Assembly (NCBI RefSeq): GCF_015207455.1 | Contig: NZ_JADEWV010000004.1 | Coordinates: forward strand, 1-64,000 | DNA: 64,000 nucleotides | From: Microcoleus sp. LEGE 07076 | GTDB taxonomy: Bacteria > Cyanobacteriota > Cyanobacteriia > Cyanobacteriales > Microcoleaceae | Direction: 5' to 3' | Shown: piece by piece, positions 6,627-27,760 of the stretch | How positions within the stretch are numbered: the first letter of the stretch is position 1 | Layout: each line of letters starts with the position of its first letter | Notes under the pieces: generated by a model | Database searches by the model: none | What the model saw: the letters and a program-made list of their open reading frames with translations, nothing else | Told to the model about the DNA's origin: nothing | Translations under genes and position numbers: made by a program

Positions 6627-6942
6627 AACTGGATTTGGTATTATTTCAAAGTCCGCGCAGGCGGACATCGTTTGTGTAGACGCGGTTTCAACCACCTCCT
6701 TCATAAACTGGATTTGGTATTATTTCAAAGTCCGCGCAGGCGGACATCGTTTGTGTAGACGCGGTTTCAACCACCTCCTTCATAAACTGGATTTGGTATT
6801 ATTTCAAAGTCCGCGCAGGCGGACATCGTTTGTGTAGACGCGGTTTCAACCACCTCCTTCATAAACTGGATTTGGTATTATTTCAAAGTCCGCGCAGGCG
6901 GACATCGTTTGTGTAGACGCGGTTTCAACCGCCTCCTTGATA
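6627..6942. repeat. 79-bp tandem repeat, four copies
   Basis: Four near-perfect 79-bp units start at 6627, 6706, 6785 and 6864. Each holds the palindrome GTCCGCGCAGGCGGAC and a CGCGGTTTCAACC box. The last copy differs near its end (GCCTCCTTGA instead of ACCTCCTTCA). The unit is built from two motifs seen dispersed elsewhere: GCGGTTTCAACCGCC (also at 35240-35475 and, inverted, at 57870) and the AGTCCGCGCAN-type box. No coding potential is seen. Confidence 0.9.
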
Positions 6943-6958
6943 AACTGACGCAGGGTGT

Positions 6959-11741: not shown

Positions 11742-14258
11742 CTAGGGCTTGTGGATAGGCGATCGCACTTTTTGCTGATTTATAATTTCGTCGCACAAGT
11801 GGCGATCGCTTTCAGTAAGCACCGACTTAACCTGAAGAGAATTGCGAGTTAAATTACAACCCTGCGCCAGCAAATCATCCACATTCAAATTCCACAATAT
11901 CACAGTACCATCGGCAGCCGCACTAGCGATAGTCTTGCCATCTGGACTAAAACTCGCACTCCAAACTGCACTCTTGTGTCCCTTTAAAGTTTTGAGCAAT
12001 GTACCGTCAATTTTCCACAGTCTCACCATTTTGTCTGCACTCGCCGATACCAGTATTTGGCGATCGGGACTAAAATTAATATTTGCAACTTGACTGGGAT
12101 GTTTAAACATACTCATTAGTCTACCGTTTGAGCTCAAAATTTTCACATCTTTCTCGCCTAAGACTGAGGCAGTTATTTGATTGTTTTGCTTAAAATCGTC
12201 ATTTTTTACTTGGTTTTTCTCTTGCTTGAAAGTTTCAATTAGCTTGCCATCAACCTGCCAATTTTTAACTACACGATCGTCGCTAACTGAAATCAGCCTC
12301 TGACTATCCGCACTAAAACTTACCTTGACAATTCGAGCATCATGACCTTTCAACACAGCTTTCAAGCTGCCGTTTGTCTGCCAAATTTTAATCGTCCTAT
12401 CCTCGTTAGTTATTGCCAGCATTTGACTGTCTGGGCTAAAAACAACCAAAGCTAACTTATTGGCTGAATTCAAAAGAATTAGGCGTTTATTAAAACTGTA
12501 AACAACTTGTTCTAGTGCAGTTAAAATCCTAACTTGGATATCTGATGTCACTCCTAGCGATCGGTTCATTTCTTGAACTGCTTTAATGCTTTCGATTAAA
12601 GCTTCAGGTTTTTTATCCGCTGCAAATAGGGTTTCGGAAAACAAACTGAGAGTCAGGATTTTGTGATTTCGTTCCTCAATTGAAGGTTTAATCCAAAAAG
12701 CAACAAGTAAGATAGAAATCAGTAATGCTGAACTTACCGTGAAAATTTGTACTTTAAGTCTTTGTTCGCGCCAGAGTTTAAGTTGAGTAGCTTTTCTAAG
12801 TTTTTGCTGTTCGGCTAATTCTTCTAATAACTGTTTTTCCCGACGCAACAGTTCTATTTCTGCTTGAGTTAGTTGTTCGCGATCGCGCAATTGAGTAAAT
12901 TCTGCCTCTTGACTAGCCGCTAAAAAATGATAATCTTGGGTACTCAAACTTTTACCAGCAGCCCATTCTCGCGCATCTTGCAATGCTTGACCGCGCAACA
13001 ATCGAGATTCATCTTGACAATTCGATCCTATCCATGCTGTTAGAGATTCGGCGTAGGGCCGCAAGTCGCAAAGAGCTTTTTCTACCCAGTTTTGGTTAAA
13101 TATAGCTGCGTAAATGCGGTTATTTACCGTTAATTTGCCACCTCGTTTTACCACCAATCCGCTGAGGCGCAGTTCAGTTTGTTCTGGAGTATCATCGGCA
13201 TCGATCCCCCCAGCCCCCCTTAAGAAGGAGGGTTCTGAAACAGGCAATATTTTTTCGATCCCCCCAGCCCCCCTTAAGAAGGGGGGTTCTGAAACGAGCA
13301 ATATTTTTTGGTATAGTCCTAATAATCTACTAGCGCGGTGCTGATTTCTGAGGAGGCGATCGCGAATTGTCTTCAAATGCACTGGTTCATCAGCAGCTTC
13401 CCAATTATTAATAATCTGAGATTGCACTATCTCCCCAATCAACAATCGGTTCGTAGTAAGGACTTCAGTCCTTCTTCCTAACTCCTGCCCTTGAACAATC
13501 AATTTACAAAGCTTTTGAGTCAGAAACGGTTGACCACCCGTCCACTCCAAAATCTCTTGTAAAACTTCTTGATAATTGTCAACTTTACCCTCAAACCCCT
13601 TGACCAAAGGCAAAGATTCGTGTAACTTAAAACCCTGAAGTTCGATCGCGCGACCAATATTAAACGGCGTGCGAGTGGCATCGCTAATTAAATCCGACGG
13701 CGTAGCGACTCCCAGCAACACAAATGTCAACCGCTGATATTCTGATTTGTGAGCGCGTTTATTGTAGCACGATCTAATCAAGGCAAAAAAATCATCAAGG
13801 GATTCTTTGAAACTGAGAACGCTATCAACTTCATCAATAAAAATGACAATGTTTTGAGAAATCTTTACCAGCAATAACTCTTCAATTAACTCTCCTAAAC
13901 GTTGGACTGGGGACATCAATTCTCTCTCCCGCCACCAAGTCATAAACTCGACTGCGTTAAACAGGTTGAAATTGCACAAAAGTTTGTAAGCGACACCGCC
14001 GTACCACTTGTCGAGGGAGACTTGCTGGTTGCCAATGTCCGAAAGGTCGATCGTAGCACAAGCAACGCCATCAGCCGAGAGCTTTTGTACAGTTCGCACC
14101 AACAAACTAGATTTGCCCATTTGTCGGGAATTGAGCACATAACAAAACTCTCCCGCTTTCAGGGCTTGATAAAGTTCCGAGTCAGCTTGTCGCACCACAT
14201 AGGTAGGCGCATCTTGCGGGAGACTGCCGCCGATTTGATATTGGTAATCGACTGTCAT
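11742..14258 (-). CDS. AAA_35 ATPase with transmembrane helix and WD40 repeats
   Basis: An 838-residue multidomain protein. The N-terminal AAA-like (AAA_35) ATPase has the motif VLNSRQMGKSSLL (Lys49, Ser50) and a Walker B strand NIVIFIDEVDSVLSF near residue 140. A winged-helix-like part follows, then a charged coiled region (residues 440-500), one transmembrane helix (near FTVSSALLISILLVAFWIK) and about five WD40 blades (IKIWQ, VKNWQ, VRLWK, VILWN endings). The middle carries two in-frame insertions made of dispersed repeat DNA (13201-13309 and about 13449-13476). It is the last gene of a leftward unit, 19 bp after a pilin-like gene. Signalling at the membrane is likely, but the trigger is unknown. 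Confidence 0.88.
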   Translation of the reverse strand: MTVDYQYQIGGSLPQDAPTYVVRQADSELYQALKAGEFCYVLNSRQMGKSSLLVRTVQKLSADGVACATIDLSDIGNQQVSLDKWYGGVAYKLLCNFNLFNAVEFMTWWRERELMSPVQRLGELIEELLLVKISQNIVIFIDEVDSVLSFKESLDDFFALIRSCYNKRAHKSEYQRLTFVLLGVATPSDLISDATRTPFNIGRAIELQGFKLHESLPLVKGFEGKVDNYQEVLQEILEWTGGQPFLTQKLCKLIVQGQELGRRTEVLTTNRLLIGEIVQSQIINNWEAADEPVHLKTIRDRLLRNQHRASRLLGLYQKILLVSEPPFLRGAGGIEKILPVSEPSFLRGAGGIDADDTPEQTELRLSGLVVKRGGKLTVNNRIYAAIFNQNWVEKALCDLRPYAESLTAWIGSNCQDESRLLRGQALQDAREWAAGKSLSTQDYHFLAASQEAEFTQLRDREQLTQAEIELLRREKQLLEELAEQQKLRKATQLKLWREQRLKVQIFTVSSALLISILLVAFWIKPSIEERNHKILTLSLFSETLFAADKKPEALIESIKAVQEMNRSLGVTSDIQVRILTALEQVVYSFNKRLILLNSANKLALVVFSPDSQMLAITNEDRTIKIWQTNGSLKAVLKGHDARIVKVSFSADSQRLISVSDDRVVKNWQVDGKLIETFKQEKNQVKNDDFKQNNQITASVLGEKDVKILSSNGRLMSMFKHPSQVANINFSPDRQILVSASADKMVRLWKIDGTLLKTLKGHKSAVWSASFSPDGKTIASAAADGTVILWNLNVDDLLAQGCNLTRNSLQVKSVLTESDRHLCDEIINQQKVRSPIHKP
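13201..13309 (-). repeat. Two 54-bp palindromic repeat copies inside the coding frame
   Basis: Two copies of a CCCCCCAGCCCCCCTTAAGAAG-type element start at 13201 and 13255. The 54-bp period equals 18 codons, so the frame is kept. On the coding strand they yield two copies of a segment containing SEPPFLRGAGGI / SEPSFLRGAGGI. Related intergenic copies are at 16899-16980 and about 57995-58035. Confidence 0.9.
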
Positions 14259-14277: not shown

Positions 14278-14781
14278 TTATTTGGTCACTTGTGTTGTGC
14301 CTTTACCGCAAATAACTTTGCCATTTAGATAAATTGGTTCTGCTGGTTTAATTGTACCGTCAGAATCAGTTTCGCACAAGATGGATGTTGTTGTCATTTC
14401 ATCTTGAGCAGCATTTGGCTCAACTGCTTTAGCAGGAACTACAAACACACCGCCGACATAACTTTTAGGTCCTTCTTGCTTGGATACTCCGTAATTAAAG
14501 GCTGCCTTATCAGTAGCGCGAATTGAATATTTGTACCATTTTGTTTTTGTTTCAATGTCAAGTCCTAAATCAGGAATATGATCGCTAAAAGCACCTTTTT
14601 TTGCAAATTTAGCTTGCTGAGTTTTGTTCATAAAACTAATATAATGTTTGCCTTCCGATTGCTTACCACCATTTACACTACTCAGATAAGATGGTAGAGC
14701 GATCGCGGTCAATACTCCAATGCACATTAAAAGCACTAAACATCCGCAACCATTAACTGGCTTAGAATTTTCTTGACGCAT
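14278..14781 (-). CDS. Type IV pilin-like protein (Pilin_GH type) 1
   Basis: A 167-residue protein with a short polar N-terminus, one hydrophobic helix (CLVLLMCIGVLTAIALPSYL) and a globular domain. The ALPSYLSSV end of the helix and the later pattern KHYISFMNKTQQAKF, AAFNYGVS, SYVGGVFVVPAKAVEPNAA match the cyanobacterial 'type IV pilin-like G and H' family. The normal prepilin site (G-F-T-x-x-E) is not intact: NGCGCLVLL has no Glu at +5. Assembly into pili is therefore doubtful. Its C-terminus holds a likely disulphide pair (SILCETDSDG and KVICGKG). Its closest relatives in view are the genes at 14889 and 19427. Confidence 0.8.
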   Translation of the reverse strand: MRQENSKPVNGCGCLVLLMCIGVLTAIALPSYLSSVNGGKQSEGKHYISFMNKTQQAKFAKKGAFSDHIPDLGLDIETKTKWYKYSIRATDKAAFNYGVSKQEGPKSYVGGVFVVPAKAVEPNAAQDEMTTTSILCETDSDGTIKPAEPIYLNGKVICGKGTTQVTK

Positions 14782-14888: not shown

Positions 14889-15404
14889 TTATTCTGTTAC
14901 TGCTGTCGTGCCTTTACCGCAAGCAGTTTTACCATTTTGATAAGTGGGTTCTGGCGGTTGAATTGAACCGGGAGAATCAGCTTTACACAATATGGCTAAT
15001 GTCTTGAGTTCATCTTTTGCAGCATTTGGCTCAACTTCTTTAGCAGGAAATACAAAGACACCGCCGACATAACTTATACTTTTTGAGTGCTTGGATACTC
15101 CGTAATTAAATGCTGCTTGCTTGGTGGCGCGAACTAAATACTTGTAATTTGGGGTTTCAGTTTGAATGCCTATTCCCAACGCTTCAACCGAATTAGCCAA
15201 AGTATTTTTTTGAGCAAAATAGGCTTTCTGCTCTCTGTTCATTGAGCTAACATACTGTTTTGGTTCCGAGGGAATTTCCAGAATTACCTCATTAATAAAT
15301 GAGGGGCGAGCTAGCACGCCAATTACTCCGACGTAGATTAAAAACAGCAAGCATTCGTAACGATAAAGTGAAAGGTTAGATAACAGATTTTTTTTGGGAC
15401 TCAT
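14889..15404 (-). CDS. Type IV pilin-like protein (Pilin_GH type) 2
   Basis: A 171-residue paralogue of the gene at 14278. The globular part is clearly homologous (KQYVSSMNREQKAYFAQK, AAFNYGVSKHSKS, YVGGVFVFPAKEVEPNAAKDE, ILCKADSPGSIQPPEP, ACGKGTTAV). The N-terminal helix (YECLLFLIYVGVIGVLARPSFI) is a degraded pilin helix without the Gly/Glu processing signals. It is probably a membrane-anchored ectodomain protein rather than a pilus subunit. It lies between pilin-like gene 1 and the SPFH gene, all leftward. Confidence 0.78.
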   Translation of the reverse strand: MSPKKNLLSNLSLYRYECLLFLIYVGVIGVLARPSFINEVILEIPSEPKQYVSSMNREQKAYFAQKNTLANSVEALGIGIQTETPNYKYLVRATKQAAFNYGVSKHSKSISYVGGVFVFPAKEVEPNAAKDELKTLAILCKADSPGSIQPPEPTYQNGKTACGKGTTAVTE

Positions 15405-15546: not shown

Positions 15547-16107
15547 CTAATATCGCAACTTTTGTGCTTGTTTTTTGTCGGAATATTCGGGTTTAATCGC
15601 TTTACTGCCGATCGCAAAATCGCGCAACTCCACCCTCGTAAACTTCACACCCCACGGATCGGTGGTTGTATCCAACTCCTCCACTAAAGTATTATTGAGT
15701 TGATGGCGAGCTGTATGAAGTTCCTCGACACTTAATTGAGCAATCTGAGTCCGAATCGAAAGAATCAGCATATTGAACATCGCTTCCTTGAGATTCTGCA
15801 CTTTGTAGGAAGCTTTTTCTAAGTCAATTACTCGCCAGTACACAATAAATTCAAGGGTGACAAAAACCCGATCGCGAGTTGCACATTGTTGCGGTGGCAG
15901 TTTTAACATTTGCTCGCGCAGAGTTTGTTTGTAAGCGACTGTTTCGACAAACGGAATCAGAAATGTTAAACCGGGTTCGAGTTTTTTGCGATCGTACTTT
16001 CCGAAAATCTCAACTAAAGCTTCATCTCCTTGACGGACGATTTTAACGCTACTGACTAAAGATACTCCAGTGATTGCAAACAACACCATCAAAAAATACT
16101 GATACAT
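15547..16107 (-). CDS. Short SPFH/band-7 (stomatin-like) protein
   Basis: A 186-residue band-7 protein. An N-terminal membrane hairpin (YQYFLMVLFAITGVSLVSSV) is followed by the SPFH core (VRQGDEALVEIFGKYDRKKLEPGLTFLIPF in parts, then LPPQQCATRDRVFVTLEFIVYWRV and the end motif WGVKFTRVELRDF). Full-length family members run to about 300 residues with a coiled-coil and oligomerisation tail. This one stops soon after the SPFH domain, so it is a trimmed version. The adjacent NfeD gene is the classic SPFH partner. Such pairs organise membrane microdomains and protease access; that role is family knowledge. Confidence 0.88.
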   Translation of the reverse strand: MYQYFLMVLFAITGVSLVSSVKIVRQGDEALVEIFGKYDRKKLEPGLTFLIPFVETVAYKQTLREQMLKLPPQQCATRDRVFVTLEFIVYWRVIDLEKASYKVQNLKEAMFNMLILSIRTQIAQLSVEELHTARHQLNNTLVEELDTTTDPWGVKFTRVELRDFAIGSKAIKPEYSDKKQAQKLRY

Positions 16108-16204: not shown

Positions 16205-16744
16205 TTAACTGTTGCTAATTAATCTGTCAGGTATCACAATCAGCGTGTTTCCTTCCCGGCGCAAAACGTAAACTTTTTGTCTGGGTGCGATTCCTTGGGA
16301 ATCTTCATTGCGAGCTTTCCAAGAAGCACCTTCATAAATCACCATTCCGATTTCTCCCGATAAAATTTCGGAGATAGTTGTGGCTGCGGTGGCTTCGGGA
16401 ATTACAAACTTTTTGCGAACAATGAAAATCGGTCTAATCCAGATACTTAGGGCGAGAGAAATTCCCATCCAGTAGGATATCTGCCAGTCAAAATCTTCAT
16501 ACATTACGTTCGCCCAATCAAACTGAAATGCTACTGATCCTCTCCACAAAATAAAGGATGAAATTAGAGCAGCAACTCCCATCATCAGCGCGTAAAACCT
16601 GTATCTTTGGGGCTGAGTTTTTTGGATAAATAGATCGATCGCACTTAGTACAACCCCTAGCAGCAACCAAAACATCGGCGGTGTGAAAGCGAAACCCGGT
16701 TGATTAGTGGCTAACGCTAGCGACCAAATTAGGAGAGAATGCAC
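16205..16744 (-). CDS. NfeD-like membrane protein
   Basis: A 179-residue protein with about four hydrophobic helices in the first 120 residues (including MFWLLLGVVLSAIDLFI and YALMMGVAALISSFIL). It has a C-terminal OB-fold-like domain with the NfeD pattern (LSGEIGMVIYEGASWKARNEDSQGI, then KVYVLRREGNTLIVIP). It is the short NfeD form without the ClpP-type protease domain. It is the first gene of the leftward unit that continues with the SPFH gene. Its start is about 93 bp from a two-copy iteron cluster at 16837-16857. Confidence 0.8.
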   Translation of the reverse strand: MHSLLIWSLALATNQPGFAFTPPMFWLLLGVVLSAIDLFIQKTQPQRYRFYALMMGVAALISSFILWRGSVAFQFDWANVMYEDFDWQISYWMGISLALSIWIRPIFIVRKKFVIPEATAATTISEILSGEIGMVIYEGASWKARNEDSQGIAPRQKVYVLRREGNTLIVIPDRLISNS

Positions 16745-16836
16745 AATGCTTTTACCTCGTTTTGATGCGATTCAACCTTGTTATTTCTCATCTAATCAGG
16801 CCGCTATTTGAGTTCGTGAGTGACTTCTTCGAGAAT

Positions 16837-16857
16837 TCATCGACTTTTCATCGACTT
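16837..16857 (-). promoter_or_regulatory. Iteron cluster A (2 copies, 11-bp phase)
   Basis: TCATCGACTT at 16837-16846 and 16848-16857 (AAGTCGATGA on the minus strand), 11 bp apart. It is positioned about 93 bp upstream of the leftward NfeD start and in the same orientation relative to that gene as cluster C is to the pilin-like gene at 19427. Confidence 0.65.
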
Positions 16858-16898
16858 TAGGAGTAGTTACAGAATCTTGGCAAGACTACTAGATTTCG

Positions 16899-16980
16899 AT
16901 CCCCCCTAGCCCCCCCTTAAGAAGGGGGGGACCGGAAGTGTTCAAAGTCCCCCTTTTTAAGGGGGATTTAGGGGGATCTA
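16899..16980. repeat. GGGGGATC-type palindromic dispersed repeat
   Basis: Two adjacent hairpin units: CCCCCCTTAAGAAGGGGGG and then AGTCCCCCTTTTTAAGGGGGA, bounded by GATCCCCC and GGGGGATC. It lies between iteron clusters A and B. The family also occurs inside the coding sequence at 13201-13309 and near 57995-58035. Confidence 0.85.
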
Positions 16981-17020
16981 GACTTGCCGTAACAACGATA
17001 TTTCTCAATATTTGAGTCTT

Positions 17021-17052
17021 AAATCGACTTTTCATCGACTTTTTATCGACTT
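17021..17052 (-). promoter_or_regulatory. Iteron cluster B (3 copies, 11-bp phase)
   Basis: Three copies of NNATCGACTT start at 17021 (AAATCGACTT), 17032 (TCATCGACTT) and 17043 (TTATCGACTT), with an exact 11-bp period. The cluster ends 50 bp before the start of the HTH-AAA_35 gene, where an operator would be expected. One helical turn per copy places all three on the same DNA face. Confidence 0.7.
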
Positions 17053-17102
17053 TGGGGACGGTGGCATTTATGATGGTTTTAGTGTCTCGATCGTTATAAG
17101 CA

Positions 17103-18479
17103 ATGCCTCGATCGCTCAGGCTGCGTCTCCAGTGCATTCCCGCAATTAAATCGTCTCTGCTGAGAAATGGCTTCCCCAGTCAGAAAATCTTGGCTGAGGA
17201 TTTAGGGATAGCCCAATCTACTGTCAGTCATTTCCTGAATGGCAAACCTGTGGATTATGCCAATTTCATCGAAATTTGTCGCGGATTGGGCCAGGAATGG
17301 CGCGATATAGCCGATTTTGAGGCGGAATCGGCGCTCGATGAGGTGTTGCCAATATCTGCAAAAATTGCGATCGCCCAATCCAGTCCAGGCCATGAATTAG
17401 CTGTCAATTTAAGCAATATTCCTACCACAAAACAGTCAATAATTCAACCCTTGCCAGCAGCCGCACCAGAATTGCCGGGAGGACAAGTAGATTTAGCTTC
17501 TTATTTTTATATCGATCGCCCTCCCATCGAATCTCGCTGTTATGAAACCGTCCTCCAACCGGGGGCGCTGATCCGCATCAAAGCTCCCAGACAGATGGGC
17601 AAAACTTCTTTAATGGCGCGGATTTTGCATCATGCAGAACAGCAAGGTTCTCGGACAGTAGCGCTGAGTTTTCAATTAGCAAATAGGAGAGTTTTTGCTA
17701 ATTCAGATACGTTTTTGCAGTGGTTTTGTGCTAGCGTCGGTCAAGAATTGGAAATGCTGGAACAGTTGCCTAAATGCTGGGAATTAGCAGATTTAATTGG
17801 CAGCAATCAGTGCTGCAAGGCTTTCTTTGAACAGTATTTACTGTCAGAATCGTCAGCGCCTCTGACATTGGGTTTGGATGAGTGCGATCGCCTGTTTGAA
17901 TGCCCGGAAATTGCCGACGACTTTTTTGGATTGTTGCGGGCTTTGCACGAAGAAGCCAAGCGGCGAGATATCTGGAAAAAGTTTCGCTTAATTGTAGTGC
18001 ATTCTACAGAAGTTTATATCCCACTGGATGTGAATAAATCGCCGTTTAATGTGGGATTGCCGATCGAATTGCCGGAGTTTGATGGGCAGCAAGTGCAAGA
18101 TTTGGCACTGCGGCACGGATTGAATTGGAGTGCGGAGGACATTGCCGAATTAATGGGTTTAGTAGGCGGAAATCCTTATTTAGTGCGGCTGGGAATGTAT
18201 CATATTGCGCGTCAAGATGTGACTTTAAATCAGTTGGTGAAATCTTCAGCTACTGAAGCGGGAATTTACAGCGATCATTTGCGGCGGCATTTGTGGAATT
18301 TAGATAAATATGCGGAATTGATGGAGGCGATGAGAGAGGTTGTGAGTGTTTCCCAGCCAGTGCGATTGAGGTCAGAATTGGGGTTTAAGTTAAATAGTAT
18401 GGGGTTGGTGAAATTGGAGGGAAATGATTGTATTGCGAGATGTCGGTTGTATCAGGAGTATTTTGGCGATCGGCTATAA
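17103..18479 (+). CDS. HTH regulator fused to AAA_35 ATPase
   Basis: A 458-residue protein. Residues 15-65 form an Xre-like helix-turn-helix (SQKILAEDLGIAQSTVSHFL followed by NGKPVDYANFIEICRGLG). After a linker, an AAA_35 ATPase starts near residue 130 (VDLASYFYIDRPPIESRCYE), with P-loop IKAPRQMGKTSLMARIL and Walker B APLTLGLDECDRLFECPEI. The C-terminal part is winged-helix-like (DLALRHGLNWSAEDIAELMG, GGNPYLVRLGMYHIA). There is no transmembrane segment or repeat domain, so it is likely a cytoplasmic DNA-binding NTPase. Iterons directly upstream suggest autoregulation, which is inference. It is paralogous in its ATPase to the gene at 11742. Confidence 0.87.
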   Translation: MPRSLRLRLQCIPAIKSSLLRNGFPSQKILAEDLGIAQSTVSHFLNGKPVDYANFIEICRGLGQEWRDIADFEAESALDEVLPISAKIAIAQSSPGHELAVNLSNIPTTKQSIIQPLPAAAPELPGGQVDLASYFYIDRPPIESRCYETVLQPGALIRIKAPRQMGKTSLMARILHHAEQQGSRTVALSFQLANRRVFANSDTFLQWFCASVGQELEMLEQLPKCWELADLIGSNQCCKAFFEQYLLSESSAPLTLGLDECDRLFECPEIADDFFGLLRALHEEAKRRDIWKKFRLIVVHSTEVYIPLDVNKSPFNVGLPIELPEFDGQQVQDLALRHGLNWSAEDIAELMGLVGGNPYLVRLGMYHIARQDVTLNQLVKSSATEAGIYSDHLRRHLWNLDKYAELMEAMREVVSVSQPVRLRSELGFKLNSMGLVKLEGNDCIARCRLYQEYFGDRL

Positions 18480-18592
18480 TGCAAATAATCCTGAAATCAA
18501 AAAATAATGCAACTCTAAGCAAACTTCAAACCCATATCCACTAAGTCATTCCCAAATCTAAAATCTAAAATCTAAAATGGTATAATCCTTAT

Positions 18593-19153
18593 TTAGCCGA
18601 TCGCCAAATCCACACTAACTACAAATTCGGGAAAAGCCAGCGGCGAAACTTTGTCGCCCCGCCAAAACCTGAGCATTAAACTGTAACCGTTAACAGTCGG
18701 CTGGCGGTAAACTTCCAAGCAGTTTTCCTGTAAATTGACTATCCATACTTCCTGAATTTGCGATCGGGCATAAATAGGAAGTTTCACGTCTCTGTCATAA
18801 TCTATTGAAGTGTCAGCTACTTCTATTAATAGTAAAACTTCCGATGGGAGGGGGTGGGCGGTTGAATAATAATCGGCGCGAGGTTGTAACAATACTAGAT
18901 CGGGTTGCGGCTCAGTGCGATCGCTCAACTGAACGGGGTTCTGCACGTCAAAAGTAGCCAAATTTTCGGGAATTTGGCTGCACAGTCTGGCTAAGCGCCT
19001 CACAGAGGAAGCATGACGAGTTCCAATAGCAGCCATTTGCACAAGTTCTCCTTCTATCAATTCTATGCGATCGCCCTCTGAAAGAATCCCAGCTTTACAC
19101 ATTTGATGGTATTCTTCTACTGTGAAAAGTCTTTTGAGCAACTGCACAGCCAT
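18593..19153 (-). CDS. Uma2-family PD-(D/E)xK nuclease-like protein
   Basis: A 186-residue member of the Uma2 (DUF820) family, abundant in cyanobacteria. It shows the N-terminal LFTVEEYHQMCKAGILSEGDRIELIEGELVQM and the nuclease core: TEPQPDLVLLQP with the acidic residue, LLLIEVADTSIDYDRDVKLPIYA containing the E-x-A/D...K signature, and the terminal strand QEVWIVNLQENCLEVYRQP. The active-site residues look intact. The natural substrate of the family is unknown. It is convergent with the HTH-AAA_35 gene, and its start faces iteron cluster C about 69 bp away. Confidence 0.88.
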   Translation of the reverse strand: MAVQLLKRLFTVEEYHQMCKAGILSEGDRIELIEGELVQMAAIGTRHASSVRRLARLCSQIPENLATFDVQNPVQLSDRTEPQPDLVLLQPRADYYSTAHPLPSEVLLLIEVADTSIDYDRDVKLPIYARSQIQEVWIVNLQENCLEVYRQPTVNGYSLMLRFWRGDKVSPLAFPEFVVSVDLAIG

Positions 19154-19221
19154 AACTTACTGTTCCTCTAATCATTTATTCAATTATAGTCAGTAGCGCT
19201 ATTAAATGCCAGTGATGTCTA

Positions 19222-19253
19222 AAGTCGATGAGAAGTCGATGAGAAGTCGATGA
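19222..19253 (+). promoter_or_regulatory. Iteron cluster C (3 copies, 11-bp phase)
   Basis: AAGTCGATGA repeated perfectly at 19222, 19233 and 19244 (11-bp period). It sits between the divergent Uma2 gene (start 19153) and the repeat-pilin gene (start 19427). The motif is the same as clusters A and B but in the opposite orientation. Confidence 0.7.
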
Positions 19254-19426
19254 GAACTCAAATAGTCACGTGATTTAATAGAAATAAGGTAGAAAGTGCG
19301 ATCGCCCAGGTTGGCAAATCCTCGATCGAAGGTCAAAGAGGCGCTACTTCAAAGCTGAATATCGCACATCGCCTCAAACGAATCATCGTCTGAAAACCTC
19401 TGGTGTAAAACATTTGGAGAACTATT

Positions 19427-20386
19427 ATGCAGCTTAAAGAAAAGCCTGAACTCAATCAAATCAACCAAAAATCGGAAGCTTCGGTAAAAACTTATCAACC
19501 CGATCGGCCCATCAAAGAACGTAAATCTGTCACTACAAGCCATCGGCAAGATTTGCAACCCATCACAGAACCTAAATCTGTCGCCACAGTCGATCGCACA
19601 AACTTGCAACCCCTCAAAGAACGCAAATCTGTCGCCACAACCGAGTGGCCCGATTTGCCACCCCTAAAAGAACGTAAATCTGTCGCCACAACCGATCCGC
19701 AGCCCAGAGAAAAGCTTGACCTAAATCAAATCAACCAAAAATTGAAAGTTTTGGTAAAAACCGATCGCACAAATTTGCAACCTATCAAACAACGTAAATC
19801 TGTCGCAACAGTCGATCGGCAAGATTTGCGATCGATAAAAAAGCTTAAATCTGTGGCAAAAACTTATCAGCCAGATTTGCGTTCCATAAATGAATATAAA
19901 TCTGGTGGAGGAACTTCACGGATTATTGACTTTTTTGTAGTTGTGATAATTATTGGGATACTTAGTGCGATCGCCCTCCCTGAATTTGCCCGTTGTAAGC
20001 CGTATAAAGCCATGCAGATTCAAGCTAAGCAATATGTTTCCTCAATGAACAAAGGTCAGGAAGCTTCTTTTGCGGAAAATAGTGCTTTTGGCAATTCTAT
20101 TTCTGCTTTAGGACTTGGCATTAAAACTCAGACAACCAACTATAACTATTCATCCATAGCTACCAAAAATGCTGCGTTTAGTTATGCGGTATCTCGCAAC
20201 AATAATCTTCGTAGCTATGTCGGGGCTGTATTTTTAGTACCTGTTTCCCCAGCAGCTAACAATGACAAGACTACTACAGCTATTCTGTGTGAAGCAAATT
20301 CTCCGGGGGATACCCAACCGCCAGATCCTATCATTGAGAATGATCGTCCTGTCTGTGGTGATGGCACTGTGGAAGTGAGCAAGTAA
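19427..20386 (+). CDS. Pilin-like protein with N-terminal 17-residue repeat domain
   Basis: A 319-residue protein. Residues 1-165 hold seven copies of a 17-residue repeat with core LQPIKERKSVATxDR. They fall in two blocks, of four and three copies, each introduced by a LNQINQK...VKT segment, which shows a higher-order duplication. A pilin-type helix follows (IIDFFVVVIIIGILSAIALP), then the Pilin_GH ectodomain (KQYVSSMNKGQEASF, AAFSYAVSRNN, YVGAVFLVPVSP, AILCEANSPGDTQPPDP). The residue at the prepilin cleavage position is Thr rather than Gly, so the basic repeat domain is probably retained on the cytoplasmic side. Function is unknown. The sequence suggests a single-pass receptor or scaffold. 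Confidence 0.82.
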   Translation: MQLKEKPELNQINQKSEASVKTYQPDRPIKERKSVTTSHRQDLQPITEPKSVATVDRTNLQPLKERKSVATTEWPDLPPLKERKSVATTDPQPREKLDLNQINQKLKVLVKTDRTNLQPIKQRKSVATVDRQDLRSIKKLKSVAKTYQPDLRSINEYKSGGGTSRIIDFFVVVIIIGILSAIALPEFARCKPYKAMQIQAKQYVSSMNKGQEASFAENSAFGNSISALGLGIKTQTTNYNYSSIATKNAAFSYAVSRNNNLRSYVGAVFLVPVSPAANNDKTTTAILCEANSPGDTQPPDPIIENDRPVCGDGTVEVSK

Positions 20387-20401: not shown

Positions 20402-21703
20402 ATGCCAGAAGTAGTCAAAGGTTTCCTCATCTTAACTTGCATCTTCATGCCCCTCGAAAGAATCTTTTCCTTGCACAATCAAAAGATATTCCGTCTCGGA
20501 TGGGCAACCGATGCTACCTATTTTTTTACAGGTCACTTTATTGGCAGAGCTGGCGCTCTTGTTGTGGCTGTAACCTTGTCCATGATGACTGATTTACTCA
20601 ACCCGGAATTGCAAAGCAAAATAGCCTCTCAACCAATCTGGTTGCAGTTTTTAGAAGCAATTGTAATTTCCGACATGGCATATTATATTGCTCACCGAAT
20701 GCTGCATGAAGTACCCTGGCTTTGGCAATTTCATGCAGTCCATCACAGCATTGAACACATGGATTGGTTGGCAGCAGTGCGGGTGCATCCCTGCGAGCAA
20801 CTCTTTACTCAGATTTGCAAAATGATGCCTCTTTACTGGTTGGGATTTACTAAGGAAGCTTTTGCGGTTTATGCTCTTTATTCGGCGGCGATCGCCTTTT
20901 TAATTCATGCTAACATTACTATCAAGTTTGGCCCGCTCAAATGGTTCGTCGCCACGCCGCAATTCCATCACTGGCATCACAGTAAAAGTCCTAAAATCCA
21001 CAACAAAAATTTTGCCGTTCAGTTGCCGCTGTTAGATTTACTATTTGGCACCCTCTATATGCCAACAAAAAAAATGCCCGATCGATATGGTGTCTCTAAT
21101 TCGATACCTGCTGGCTATCTCGGACAAATACTCTATCCATTTATCAGAAAAATTAAAATGCTAAATAACAGGTTAAAACTAGGTATCGATCGCTATTTTC
21201 GCCCCTTACCTGTAATTCTTGGTCTGAGTTCGATCGCGATTAGTTCTTTGACTGTAATGGCTTTAATCAATCACATGGACATCCCTACTTTTATTGCCAG
21301 TTGGAATTCTCAACAAGTAACTGTTGCCGAATTGCAGCAAGGTAAGTTGAAACCGGTGATTTTGATTGACGTGCGATCGCCCGAAGAGTACGCAGAAGAT
21401 CGCATCGGTGAAAGTCCGCTGGTTCCCCTGATTGACATTGAAGCTGGATTCGGTATCAAGCAAGTGCAAGCTATTGCTCGATCGATTGTCAAATCCAATC
21501 AACCTCAACCAACGATTGTACTTTATTGTGCGCGGGGAGGGCGATCGGTTAAAGCATACCAAAAATTGCAAAAAACTAATTTGAAGTTAGCTTTCCTCTC
21601 TGGCGGTATCACAGCGTGGCGGGAAGCTGTGCCTGCTAAACAAGACGCTGAAATATTAGCGCCAATTACTCGATCGCTCCCAGAGACAGTCAGAAGTAAT
21701 TAG
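20402..21703 (+). CDS. Sterol-desaturase-family hydroxylase fused to rhodanese domain
   Basis: A 433-residue fusion. The N-terminal part (about residues 1-270) is a membrane fatty-acid-hydroxylase/sterol-desaturase with histidine clusters HRMLH, HAVHHS and HHWHHS and several hydrophobic helices. The C-terminal part (about 300-420) is a rhodanese: VILIDVRSPEEYAEDRI, catalytic loop YCARGGRS with Cys376, and LSGGITAWREAVP. Hydroxylases of this type use a di-iron centre on lipid or carotenoid-like substrates; rhodanese carries sulfane sulfur. The substrate is unknown. It begins 15 bp after the repeat-pilin gene on the same strand, so the two are probably co-transcribed. Confidence 0.87.
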   Translation: MPEVVKGFLILTCIFMPLERIFSLHNQKIFRLGWATDATYFFTGHFIGRAGALVVAVTLSMMTDLLNPELQSKIASQPIWLQFLEAIVISDMAYYIAHRMLHEVPWLWQFHAVHHSIEHMDWLAAVRVHPCEQLFTQICKMMPLYWLGFTKEAFAVYALYSAAIAFLIHANITIKFGPLKWFVATPQFHHWHHSKSPKIHNKNFAVQLPLLDLLFGTLYMPTKKMPDRYGVSNSIPAGYLGQILYPFIRKIKMLNNRLKLGIDRYFRPLPVILGLSSIAISSLTVMALINHMDIPTFIASWNSQQVTVAELQQGKLKPVILIDVRSPEEYAEDRIGESPLVPLIDIEAGFGIKQVQAIARSIVKSNQPQPTIVLYCARGGRSVKAYQKLQKTNLKLAFLSGGITAWREAVPAKQDAEILAPITRSLPETVRSN

Positions 21704-26132: not shown

Positions 26133-27047
26133 ATGGATAGTTTTCTACCAATTGCCTACTTTCAAAACCAATTTCTCCCATTTACCGACGCCAACATTTC
26201 CATAGCCACTCACGCACTGCACTACGGAACCGGAGTATTAGGCGGGTTGCGAGGAATACCCGACCCCGAAAATGCCGATCGCATCCTCCTATTTAGATTA
26301 GACCGCCACTGTCAAAGATTAAGTCAAAGTGCCCGATTCCTCAACTGCGATTTACCCGCCGACAAAATTCAACAAATCATCATTGATTTTGTCAAAAAAA
26401 ACCAGCCAACACAATCATTTTACATCCGCCCTTTCGTCTACACATCCAGCTTAGGAATTGCCCCCCGACTGCACAACGTCGAAACAGACTTCTTTGTCTA
26501 CGGACTAGAACTCTCAGACTACTTACCCAAAGCAGGAGTCAACTGTAGAATCAGTTCTTGGTATCGCCAAGAAGACCGCAGCTTACCCTTGAGAGGCAAA
26601 ATTAGCGGCGCTTACATCACCTCAGCCTTAGCCAAAACAGAAGCAGTAGAATCCGGCTTCGACGAAGCAATTATGATGAACACCCAAGGAAAAGTCAGCG
26701 AAGCTTCAGGAATGAACATATTTGTCGCCAGAAATGGTAAATTAGTGACTCCAGGTTTCGATCAAGATATCCTCGAAGGAATCACCAGAGACAGCGTGAT
26801 AACTATCGCCAGAGACTTAGGAATAGAAGTCACAGAAAGACCAGTAGACAAATCAGAACTGTTGATTGCAGACGAGATTTTTCTGTGCGGAACCGCCGCC
26901 AAAGTTACCCCAATTAACCGAGTAGAAAACTATCAATTGCCCAAAAACCGACCAATCACCGAAAAGATTTTGAACCAACTGACGGGAATCATCGAAAATC
27001 GCGATCGCAAGTACAAAAAGTGGGTATTTGCGATCGATCTCAAATAA
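26133..27047 (+). CDS. Class IV PLP aminotransferase, IlvE-like
   Basis: A 304-residue fold-type IV aminotransferase, probably acting on branched-chain amino acids. It shows LPFTDANISIATHALHYGTG, the PLP-lysine region LRGKISGAYITSALAKTEAV in which the Lys of ALAKTEA is expected to bind PLP, then GFDEAIMMNTQGKVSEASGMN with the family Glu, and LEGITRDSVI. D-amino-acid transaminase or aminodeoxychorismate lyase are alternatives, but the YIRPFVYTS and the GxxxEA(S)GMN pattern favour branched-chain type. ATG at 26133 is preferred to the TTG at 26118. Confidence 0.85.
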   Translation: MDSFLPIAYFQNQFLPFTDANISIATHALHYGTGVLGGLRGIPDPENADRILLFRLDRHCQRLSQSARFLNCDLPADKIQQIIIDFVKKNQPTQSFYIRPFVYTSSLGIAPRLHNVETDFFVYGLELSDYLPKAGVNCRISSWYRQEDRSLPLRGKISGAYITSALAKTEAVESGFDEAIMMNTQGKVSEASGMNIFVARNGKLVTPGFDQDILEGITRDSVITIARDLGIEVTERPVDKSELLIADEIFLCGTAAKVTPINRVENYQLPKNRPITEKILNQLTGIIENRDRKYKKWVFAIDLK

Positions 27048-27048
27048 G

Positions 27049-27760
27049 ATTGTAGGGTGCGTCAGTTTAGCCATTATCAATCATCACTCCTAATTCCATT
27101 CTGACGCACCATTTATTCGAGAAGTGCTAAGATTGTAGGGTGCGTCAGTGTAGTAATTCTCAATCATCGCCAAAAGTCGAATTATGACGCACCATTTATT
27201 CGAGGAACTCTCAAATAAGATTGTAGGGTGCGTCAATTTAGCAATTATCAATCATCACTCCTAATTCCATTGTGACGCACCATTTATTCGAGGAGCTCTC
27301 AAATAAGATTGTAGGGTGCGTCAATTTAGCAATTATCAATCATCACTCATAATCCCATTCTGACGCACCATTTATTCGAGAAGTGCTAAGATTGTAGAGT
27401 GCGTCAATTTAGCAATTATCAATCATCGCCAAAAGTCGAATTATGACGCACCATTTATTCGAGAAGTGCTAAGATTGTAGGGTGCGTCAATTTAGCAATT
27501 ATTAATCATCACTCCTAATTCCATTGTGACGCACCATTTATTCGAGGAGTGCGTCAGTTTCGAGATTGTTAATTTGTTGCTAAAACCTCTCTCTGACGCA
27601 CCCTACTTCTCAATTAACCATCTCCAGGTGCGTCAGTGTAGTAATTCTCAATCATCGCCAAAAGTCGAATTATGACGCACCATTTATTCGAAGAGTGCGT
27701 CAGTTTTGAAATTCTGGGTTTTTCGCAAAAATCTTGGTAACTGACGCACCCTACTTCAGG
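27049..27760. repeat. Array of 83/88-bp hairpin repeats (GGTGCGTCA...TGACGCACC)
   Basis: At least six units start with ATTGTAG at 27049, 27132, 27220, 27308, 27391 and 27474, with spacing 83 or 88 bp, then more degenerate ones to 27760. Each unit has outward arms GGTGCGTCA and TGACGCACC that can pair, and a TTTATTCGAG tail. Two interior variants alternate (CATCACTCCTAATTCCATT and CATCGCCAAAAGTCGAATTA). Single copies also occur near 22996 and 54800-54870. No gene is seen. Confidence 0.88.

Follow-up and report, generated by a model that had tools for sequence, protein, structure and literature searches.

A phased repeat around an HTH-AAA_35 gene

What reads a short repeat that recurs every 11 bp beside neighbouring genes of a cyanobacterium, and which genes does it serve? 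The question arises in a stretch of 64,000 bp from Microcoleus sp. LEGE 07076 (the whole stretch analysed, called the window below), where the unit AAGTCGATGA is clustered around a gene for an HTH-AAA_35 protein. A sequence-only reading had placed three 11-bp-phased clusters here. Our search of the window confirmed them, with six exact copies of AAGTCGATGA inside: on the minus strand at 16837-16846, 16848-16857 and 17032-17041, and on the plus strand at 19222-19231, 19233-19242 and 19244-19253. The middle cluster had been counted as three copies; it does hold three units, but only one is exact, the other two being AAGTCGATAA (17043-17052) and AAGTCGATTT (17021-17030). As had also been claimed, the window has no further cluster: elsewhere there are one isolated exact copy (53946) and three copies with one mismatch. 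When one mismatch was allowed, AAGTCGATGA matched 11 times against 4.1 expected, a count reached in none of 100 shuffles.

The arrays are longer than was first seen, as degenerate half-sites extend each of them toward a promoter -10. All clusters are directional: the left two are oriented towards NfeD (away from the HTH gene), the right one towards a pilin gene. The E-values below are from R1, a model of the array together with its -10.

16810-16857, minus strand: NfeD-facing array; two exact units (16857-16837), then degenerate half-sites down to AACTC (16814-16810); R1 E 6e-18
17021-17052, minus strand: three-unit array (AAGTCGATAA, AAGTCGATGA, AAGTCGATTT), 51 bp upstream of the HTH gene ATG
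17103-18479, plus strand: HTH-AAA_35 gene (458 aa), the proposed regulator; XRE-like HTH (residues about 1-71) and STAND/AAA_35 ATPase, no TIR domain
19222-19259, plus strand: pilin-facing array; three exact units, then an AACTC half-site (19255-19259); R1 E 1.9e-12

Across the 6.8-Mb genome we found seven copies of the tandem form AAGTCGATNNNAAGTCGAT, grouped in five clusters. Its reversed control does not occur there at all, and relaxing the 21-mer search to three mismatches added no cluster. R1 likewise gave exactly five matches in this genome, two of them without linkage to the HTH gene. Of the two clusters outside the window, one is on contig C31 and the other on C200; both are upstream of a gene for a large DUF4347/FG-GAP-type surface protein.

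Other repeats are present as well. A MITE-like repeat (CCCCCTTAAGAAGGGGGG / GATCCCCCTAAATCCCCC) occupies 16900-16985, between the two left arrays, and similar sequence is found at 13201-13309. Long tandem repeats of 79 bp (four copies, 6627-6947) and 83 bp (six copies, 27045-27552) and many heptamer repeats occur elsewhere in the window.

The array and the -10 form one promoter element

Aligned sites show an array of four to six half-sites, two or three of them exact AAGTCGATGA and the following ones degenerate, of the form A-N-(C/G)-T-C. Measured from the penultimate exact unit in 71 sites, half-sites fall at modal offsets of 0, 11, 22 (range 20-22), 31-32 and 43, the spacing of half-sites 3 to 5 being imperfect. 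The last half-site lies 19 bp before a -10 hexamer (TTTAAT, TTAGAT, CTTAAT or similar) in 59 of the 67 assignable sites, a peak that is partly built in because the search for the -10 was confined to 18-21 bp from the half-site. The distance from the first unit to the -10 is free of that constraint; its three main classes, at 52-53, 62-63 and 73 bp, differ by about one helical turn. Such steps, together with the fixed -10, indicate that array and -10 are a single promoter element that gains or loses whole turns. The final two bases of the -10 (AT) are invariant in the model alignment (A4).

16790-16795, minus strand: -10 (TTAGAT) of the NfeD-side operon; 62 bp from the first unit, 19 bp from the last half-site
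17046-17051, plus strand: putative -35 (TCGACT) of the HTH gene promoter, inside array unit 1; -10 TATGAT at 17069-17074, spacing 17
19274-19279, plus strand: -10 (TTTAAT) of the pilin-side operon; 52 bp from the first unit, 19 bp from the last half-site

We found no recognisable -35 in the operon promoters. Since the last half-site sits 19 bp before the -10, the array takes the place of the operon -35. The HTH gene has its own promoter on the opposite strand: in 28 of 39 orthologues the unit nearest the gene holds TCGACT, and 17 or 18 bp farther on comes a hexamer that matches TATAAT at five of six positions, so the array covers the -35 of this gene. An array that lies over the regulator's own -35 and replaces that of the operon is the usual anatomy of an autoregulated divergent regulator.

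The same geometry bears on the sign of regulation. An HTH-AAA_35 protein that mainly represses the operons from the arrays, and is released on a signal, would be in keeping with arrays that overlap the HTH gene's -35 and, in the operon promoters, the place of the -35. We regard this as unlikely, although it is the most credible of the alternatives weighed here, because promoters that have no recognisable -35 and carry a half-site at fixed spacing have the anatomy of activator-dependent promoters.

At the middle array (17021-17052) the operon -10 is missing, and ACTCAAATA is joined to TTGAGAAATA when compared with the congeneric genomes G001 and G167. Next to this array relatives have ACTCAAATAGCGGCCTGATTAGATGAGAAATA where the window reads ACTCAAATATTGAGAAATA; R1 matched it over model positions 2-55 with 26 bits. 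Judged by its sequence, the middle array faces the NfeD side without an operon -10, and NfeD appears to be served by the second array at 16837-16857.

The targets are mostly envelope and surface genes

The genes downstream of the two outer arrays, and the gene divergent from the right one, are as follows.

11742-14258, minus strand: AAA_35-WD40 protein at the end of the left operon (Pfam); position conserved in relatives
14278-14781, minus strand: type IV pilin-like G/H protein, left target operon (Pfam Pilin_GH 1.1e-23)
14889-15404, minus strand: type IV pilin-like G/H protein, left target operon (Pfam Pilin_GH 2.7e-23)
15547-16107, minus strand: SPFH/Band_7 protein, left target operon (Pfam 4.5e-27)
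16205-16744, minus strand: NfeD-domain membrane protein, first gene of the left target operon (Pfam NfeD 2.3e-10)
18593-19153, minus strand: Uma2 protein, divergent from the right array (Pfam Uma2 1.1e-33); place conserved in the same genus only
19427-20386, plus strand: repeat-bearing type IV pilin-like G/H protein, right target (Pfam Pilin_GH 6.2e-27)
20402-21703, plus strand: fatty-acid hydroxylase/rhodanese protein (Pfam); gene order conserved in relatives

The fatty-acid hydroxylase/rhodanese gene is, from its placement, probably co-transcribed with the right-hand pilin gene; whether the Uma2 gene is a member of the regulon is uncertain. The N-terminal part of the right-hand pilin gene contains about four coding repeats of 51 bp (17 aa) at 19508-19701. 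Outside the window, the C200 target has DUF4347/FG-GAP, Calx-beta and RTX repeats by Pfam, and the C31 target was assigned by its similarity to the C200 protein.

Across genomes, the first genes downstream of the sites code for NfeD followed by SPFH, for pilin-like G/H proteins (alone, in tandem or as long repeat forms), for DUF4347/FG-GAP adhesins and, in some relatives, for Ser/Thr kinases, one of which has VIT and VWA domains. C39 peptidase genes and AAA_35-WD40 genes follow farther down the target operons. Relatives also have two conserved operon proteins without a Pfam match (262 aa, L049 6783-7571, and 165 aa, L049 5653-6150). In a panel of 11 genomes, the close NfeD homologue was limited to those with the HTH gene. 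The target set thus belongs mostly to the envelope and cell surface. The proposed link of an NTPase to pilin-like and SPFH/NfeD genes is supported, with the amendment that the NTPase is a STAND ATPase that carries a TIR domain in most relatives and has lost it here.

The arrays occur with the HTH-AAA_35 gene

Across 196 genomes of the same order, 25 genomes from 13 genera have an orthologue of the 17103 gene. Full-length orthologues scored more than 1000 bits and aligned along nearly all of the 587 positions; the short forms reached 749-777 bits, and paralogues, which matched only from about position 70 on, at most 735 bits. A genome-wide search for array runs (21-mer, at most two mismatches) found them in 24 of the 25 genomes with an orthologue and in 8 of the 171 without one (Fisher p = 7e-23, with genomes treated as independent and relatedness ignored), which bears out the co-occurrence that the sequence-only reading had proposed to test. 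In the 25th genome (G065) the array upstream of the orthologue is degraded. The reversed control pattern was found in about a dozen of the 196 genomes, and the eight arrays without an orthologue are near this background; clusters widespread in the absence of the regulator, which would have spoken against the reading, were not seen. Its picture of a self-contained local regulon is supported as to the regulon and not as to its being local, since two more targets lie on other contigs.

The same association was seen at finer scale. In the window's genus, the window genome and G001, G033 and G167 have the HTH gene, the arrays and the close NfeD; G092, G109 and G180 have none of them. A panel of 18 genomes scanned with the model of array plus -10 gave sites in all 12 with the gene and, among the six without, one partial match; this 22-bit match in G075 lies inside a coding ORF and was taken as chance. 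An independent GTDB scan with the HTH domain returned 43 relatives in cyanobacteria, whose range runs from Microcoleus, Tychonema, Lyngbya, Oscillatoria, Laspinema, Microseira and Coleofasciculus to Iningainema, Rhizonema and Calothrix; two weak matches in Atribacteria were disregarded. Among the 41 GTDB orthologues with at least 300 bp of upstream sequence, 37 have an array scoring at least 15/20 within 700 bp upstream, in a single orientation and most often 50-62 bp from the start codon, and the remaining four have one 1-2 kb away. The opposite strand upstream of these 41 never scored above 13/20, and about 98% of random 700-bp pieces, including pieces that contain other real sites, scored at most 14/20.

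Could the arrays be bound by another, unlinked regulator such as an OmpR/PhoB-type response regulator, with the HTH-AAA_35 gene as just one more target? Direct repeats of 11 bp beside a -10 are typical of OmpR-fold regulators and used by many of the OmpR/PhoB type, the SARP activator AfsR acts on two 11-bp direct repeats that overlap the -35 close to the -10 (PMC10936776), and the promoter of the HTH gene itself bears an array. With a general regulator, however, arrays would be expected at other genes even where the cassette is absent, and in such genomes they occur at about the control rate. Even where arrays and HTH gene lie apart (G002, G101 and G074), they are within one genome. We therefore consider such a regulator improbable. 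A further regulator that was lost each time along with the cassette is possible, and less economical. The HTH-AAA_35 protein is the only recognised DNA-binding candidate that recurs beside the arrays, and it is present wherever they are common, which argues that it is their regulator.

Mobile or selfish repeats that were copied into several promoters and have no regulatory role are a very improbable explanation of the arrays. The blocks of promoter plus array do look duplicated, the site at 19222 sharing a long tail with the C31 and C200 sites, and MITE-like GGGGGATT repeats adjoin the middle cluster. Against this stand the small number of sites (five per genome), their fixed orientation and -10 distance, length steps of a helical turn, conservation between genera and functionally coherent targets.

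Some arrays are found in genomes without the HTH gene. Two of the eight, those of G140 and G148 (L185, about 2800, and L186, about 2460), look like relics: the G140 array adjoins a gene that flanks the cassette in the sister genome G125, with a MITE-like GGGGGATT repeat in the promoter's place, and the G148 array lies upstream of rhodanese and pilin-like genes. Separately, AAGTCGATGAC/GGC arrays with no promoter tail occur in three genomes of a single genus (g41), none of which has the HTH gene; their context is unrelated, upstream of a repeated gene family beginning MENLKSTFNN (L057 7895, L058 7471 and L059 4091).

The candidate regulator is a STAND ATPase with a predicted XRE-type head

The 17103 protein matched Pfam AAA_35 at 1.6e-141 (471 bits). 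Its HTH_3 match (1.7e-4) is below the Pfam threshold, and the N-terminal HTH domain matched HipB/XRE weakly (E 0.09-0.17). With 580-630 aa, most orthologues are longer and have an extra domain between HTH and ATPase that is absent from the window copy and a few others. This domain scored 39.5 bits (L123) and 28.4 bits (L119) against the Pfam TIR_2 cut-off of 28 and was sub-threshold in L103; the TIR_2 match reached 9e-10 in one orthologue. The full-length protein is therefore an XRE-type HTH, a TIR domain and a STAND ATPase (AAA_35), and the window copy has lost the TIR domain.

An AlphaFold model of one full-length orthologue has a five-helix N-terminal domain (pLDDT about 90), an alpha/beta domain and a STAND ATPase, whose relative placement is uncertain given a mean pLDDT of 78 and a pTM of 0.49. 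The best Foldseek match of the full-length orthologue was the TIR-NLR RPP1 (4e-12). With a structural aligner the nearest structures were archaeal STAND ATPases (Z 20.3 and 19.7; 2qen/SSO1545 with Z 20.3 over 305 residues), and CED-4/NLR matches were also returned; RPP1 aligned over model residues 89-596 with Z 17.9 and an rmsd of 14.7, a high value that is expected if the domain arrangement differs. The ATPase domain dominated these fold searches, and the TIR domain was therefore confirmed through Pfam. Walker A (GKTS) and Walker B (LGLDE) are conserved among orthologues, and the recognition region QSTVS(N/H)FLNGKPVDY is nearly invariant. By its P-loop, Walker motifs and fold the protein is a STAND ATPase of the AAA_35 branch, and by the fusion of a DNA-binding domain (predicted, with a sub-threshold HTH match) to the STAND core it is a STAND-class transcription regulator.

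Several other assignments were rejected. The protein is not a TIR NADase of the usual kind, as the position expected for the catalytic glutamate, aligned by motif in 31 sequences, holds Q in 17, E in 5, N in 3, D in 2 and other residues in 4. It does not belong to the SARP family: there was no Pfam match to an OmpR-type winged HTH or BTA domain, and the N-terminal domain of the AF2 model is XRE-like and helical. Nor does the cassette correspond to an anti-phage system in PADLOC, which gave no match for the HTH-AAA_35, NfeD and SPFH proteins or their neighbours; for the AAA_35-WD40 protein it gave a HEAT-ARM_XIII match that was partial and one to AriA that was weak (E 0.009).

The 17103 gene is the only close HTH relative in the window genome. 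Two HTH-AAA_35-like paralogues in this genome have no 11-bp array of the AAGTCGATGA type. Directly before the start of one paralogue (contig C450, 621 aa, HTH 35% identical) are about four 9-bp TTGTCAGAC units (L182 1885-1932). Other family members may have operators of their own.

Discussion

We consider it likely, from the sequence comparisons above, that the HTH-AAA_35 protein uses the arrays as its operators. This STAND-class ATPase has an XRE-type head, followed in most relatives by a TIR insertion. Co-occurrence and promoter geometry suggest that the protein may bind the phased repeats and activate transcription; the geometry further points to activation of the operons combined with self-repression, and the STAND fold and phased half-sites would fit oligomerisation. 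On a signal and NTP binding, the STAND module would oligomerise and set its HTH heads side by side on the four to six half-sites, along one face of the helix. The last half-site, at the -35 position 19 bp before the operon -10, would let the oligomer recruit RNA polymerase to promoters without a good -35, and the first, over the -35 of the protein's own divergent promoter, would limit its synthesis. The genes switched on would be those for the envelope and surface: NfeD/SPFH, pilin-like G/H proteins, DUF4347/FG-GAP adhesins and, in some relatives, Ser/Thr kinases. Counting against this scheme are the sub-threshold HTH match, the degenerate and imperfectly spaced half-sites 3 to 5, and the similar arrays in the three g41 genomes; in addition, XRE domains usually bind palindromes, and the arrays are direct repeats.

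By comparison with known systems the protein would work most like AfsR and MalT. MalT, a STAND activator of E. coli, oligomerises on phased direct repeats. It shares the STAND ATPase, and the MalT-system structure 8bob was among the fold matches of the full-length orthologue; MalT differs in its C-terminal LuxR/GerE HTH, its sensor domain, the lack of a TIR domain and a different operator. The large SARP regulators of Streptomyces (SARP-NOD-TPR), AfsR among them, likewise have a DNA-binding head on a STAND/NOD ATPase and use 11-bp direct repeats. AfsR has an OmpR-type winged HTH with a BTA domain, a TPR sensor and two repeats, whereas here there are an XRE-type HTH, an AAA_35 module, a TIR insertion, no TPR, four to six half-sites and a divergent promoter of its own. 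The Pho boxes of PhoB/OmpR-type regulators are also 11-bp-phased direct repeats upstream of a -10, but their sequence is different and no response regulator was seen in the cassette. Plant TIR-NLRs (RPP1, Roq1 and WRR4A) and bacterial Avs STAND proteins share the TIR plus STAND core; they serve as immune receptors and have active effectors as well as LRR or repeat sensors, in contrast to the N-terminal HTH, the absence of a sensor repeat and the unconserved TIR glutamate here. Tentatively, a TIR-STAND protein with the architecture of plant TIR-NLRs may have become a transcription factor whose filament-like oligomer is scaffolded by helically phased DNA repeats rather than by a receptor complex, with the loss of the TIR glutamate and, in the window copy, of the whole domain marking the change of job.

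In the literature searched, which covered few subscription papers, we found no earlier description of the array motif, of a role for AAA_35 or of the NfeD, SPFH and pilin cassette. Among papers that contain the 10-mer, those listed were unrelated. Two STAND/TIR surveys mention HTH fusions, and a term search of them did not return NfeD, pilin or AAA_35. A STAND regulator that combines an XRE head with a TIR insertion is a new variant, with no prior report in that literature. Filamentous cyanobacteria have many AAA_35 proteins, to which the papers searched assign no function. For one clade of them there are now a defined candidate operator, the geometry of its promoters and a proposed regulon that is small, coherent and conserved across 13 genera of the sampled order, and TIR/STAND proteins, otherwise studied in immunity, would be tied to gene regulation.
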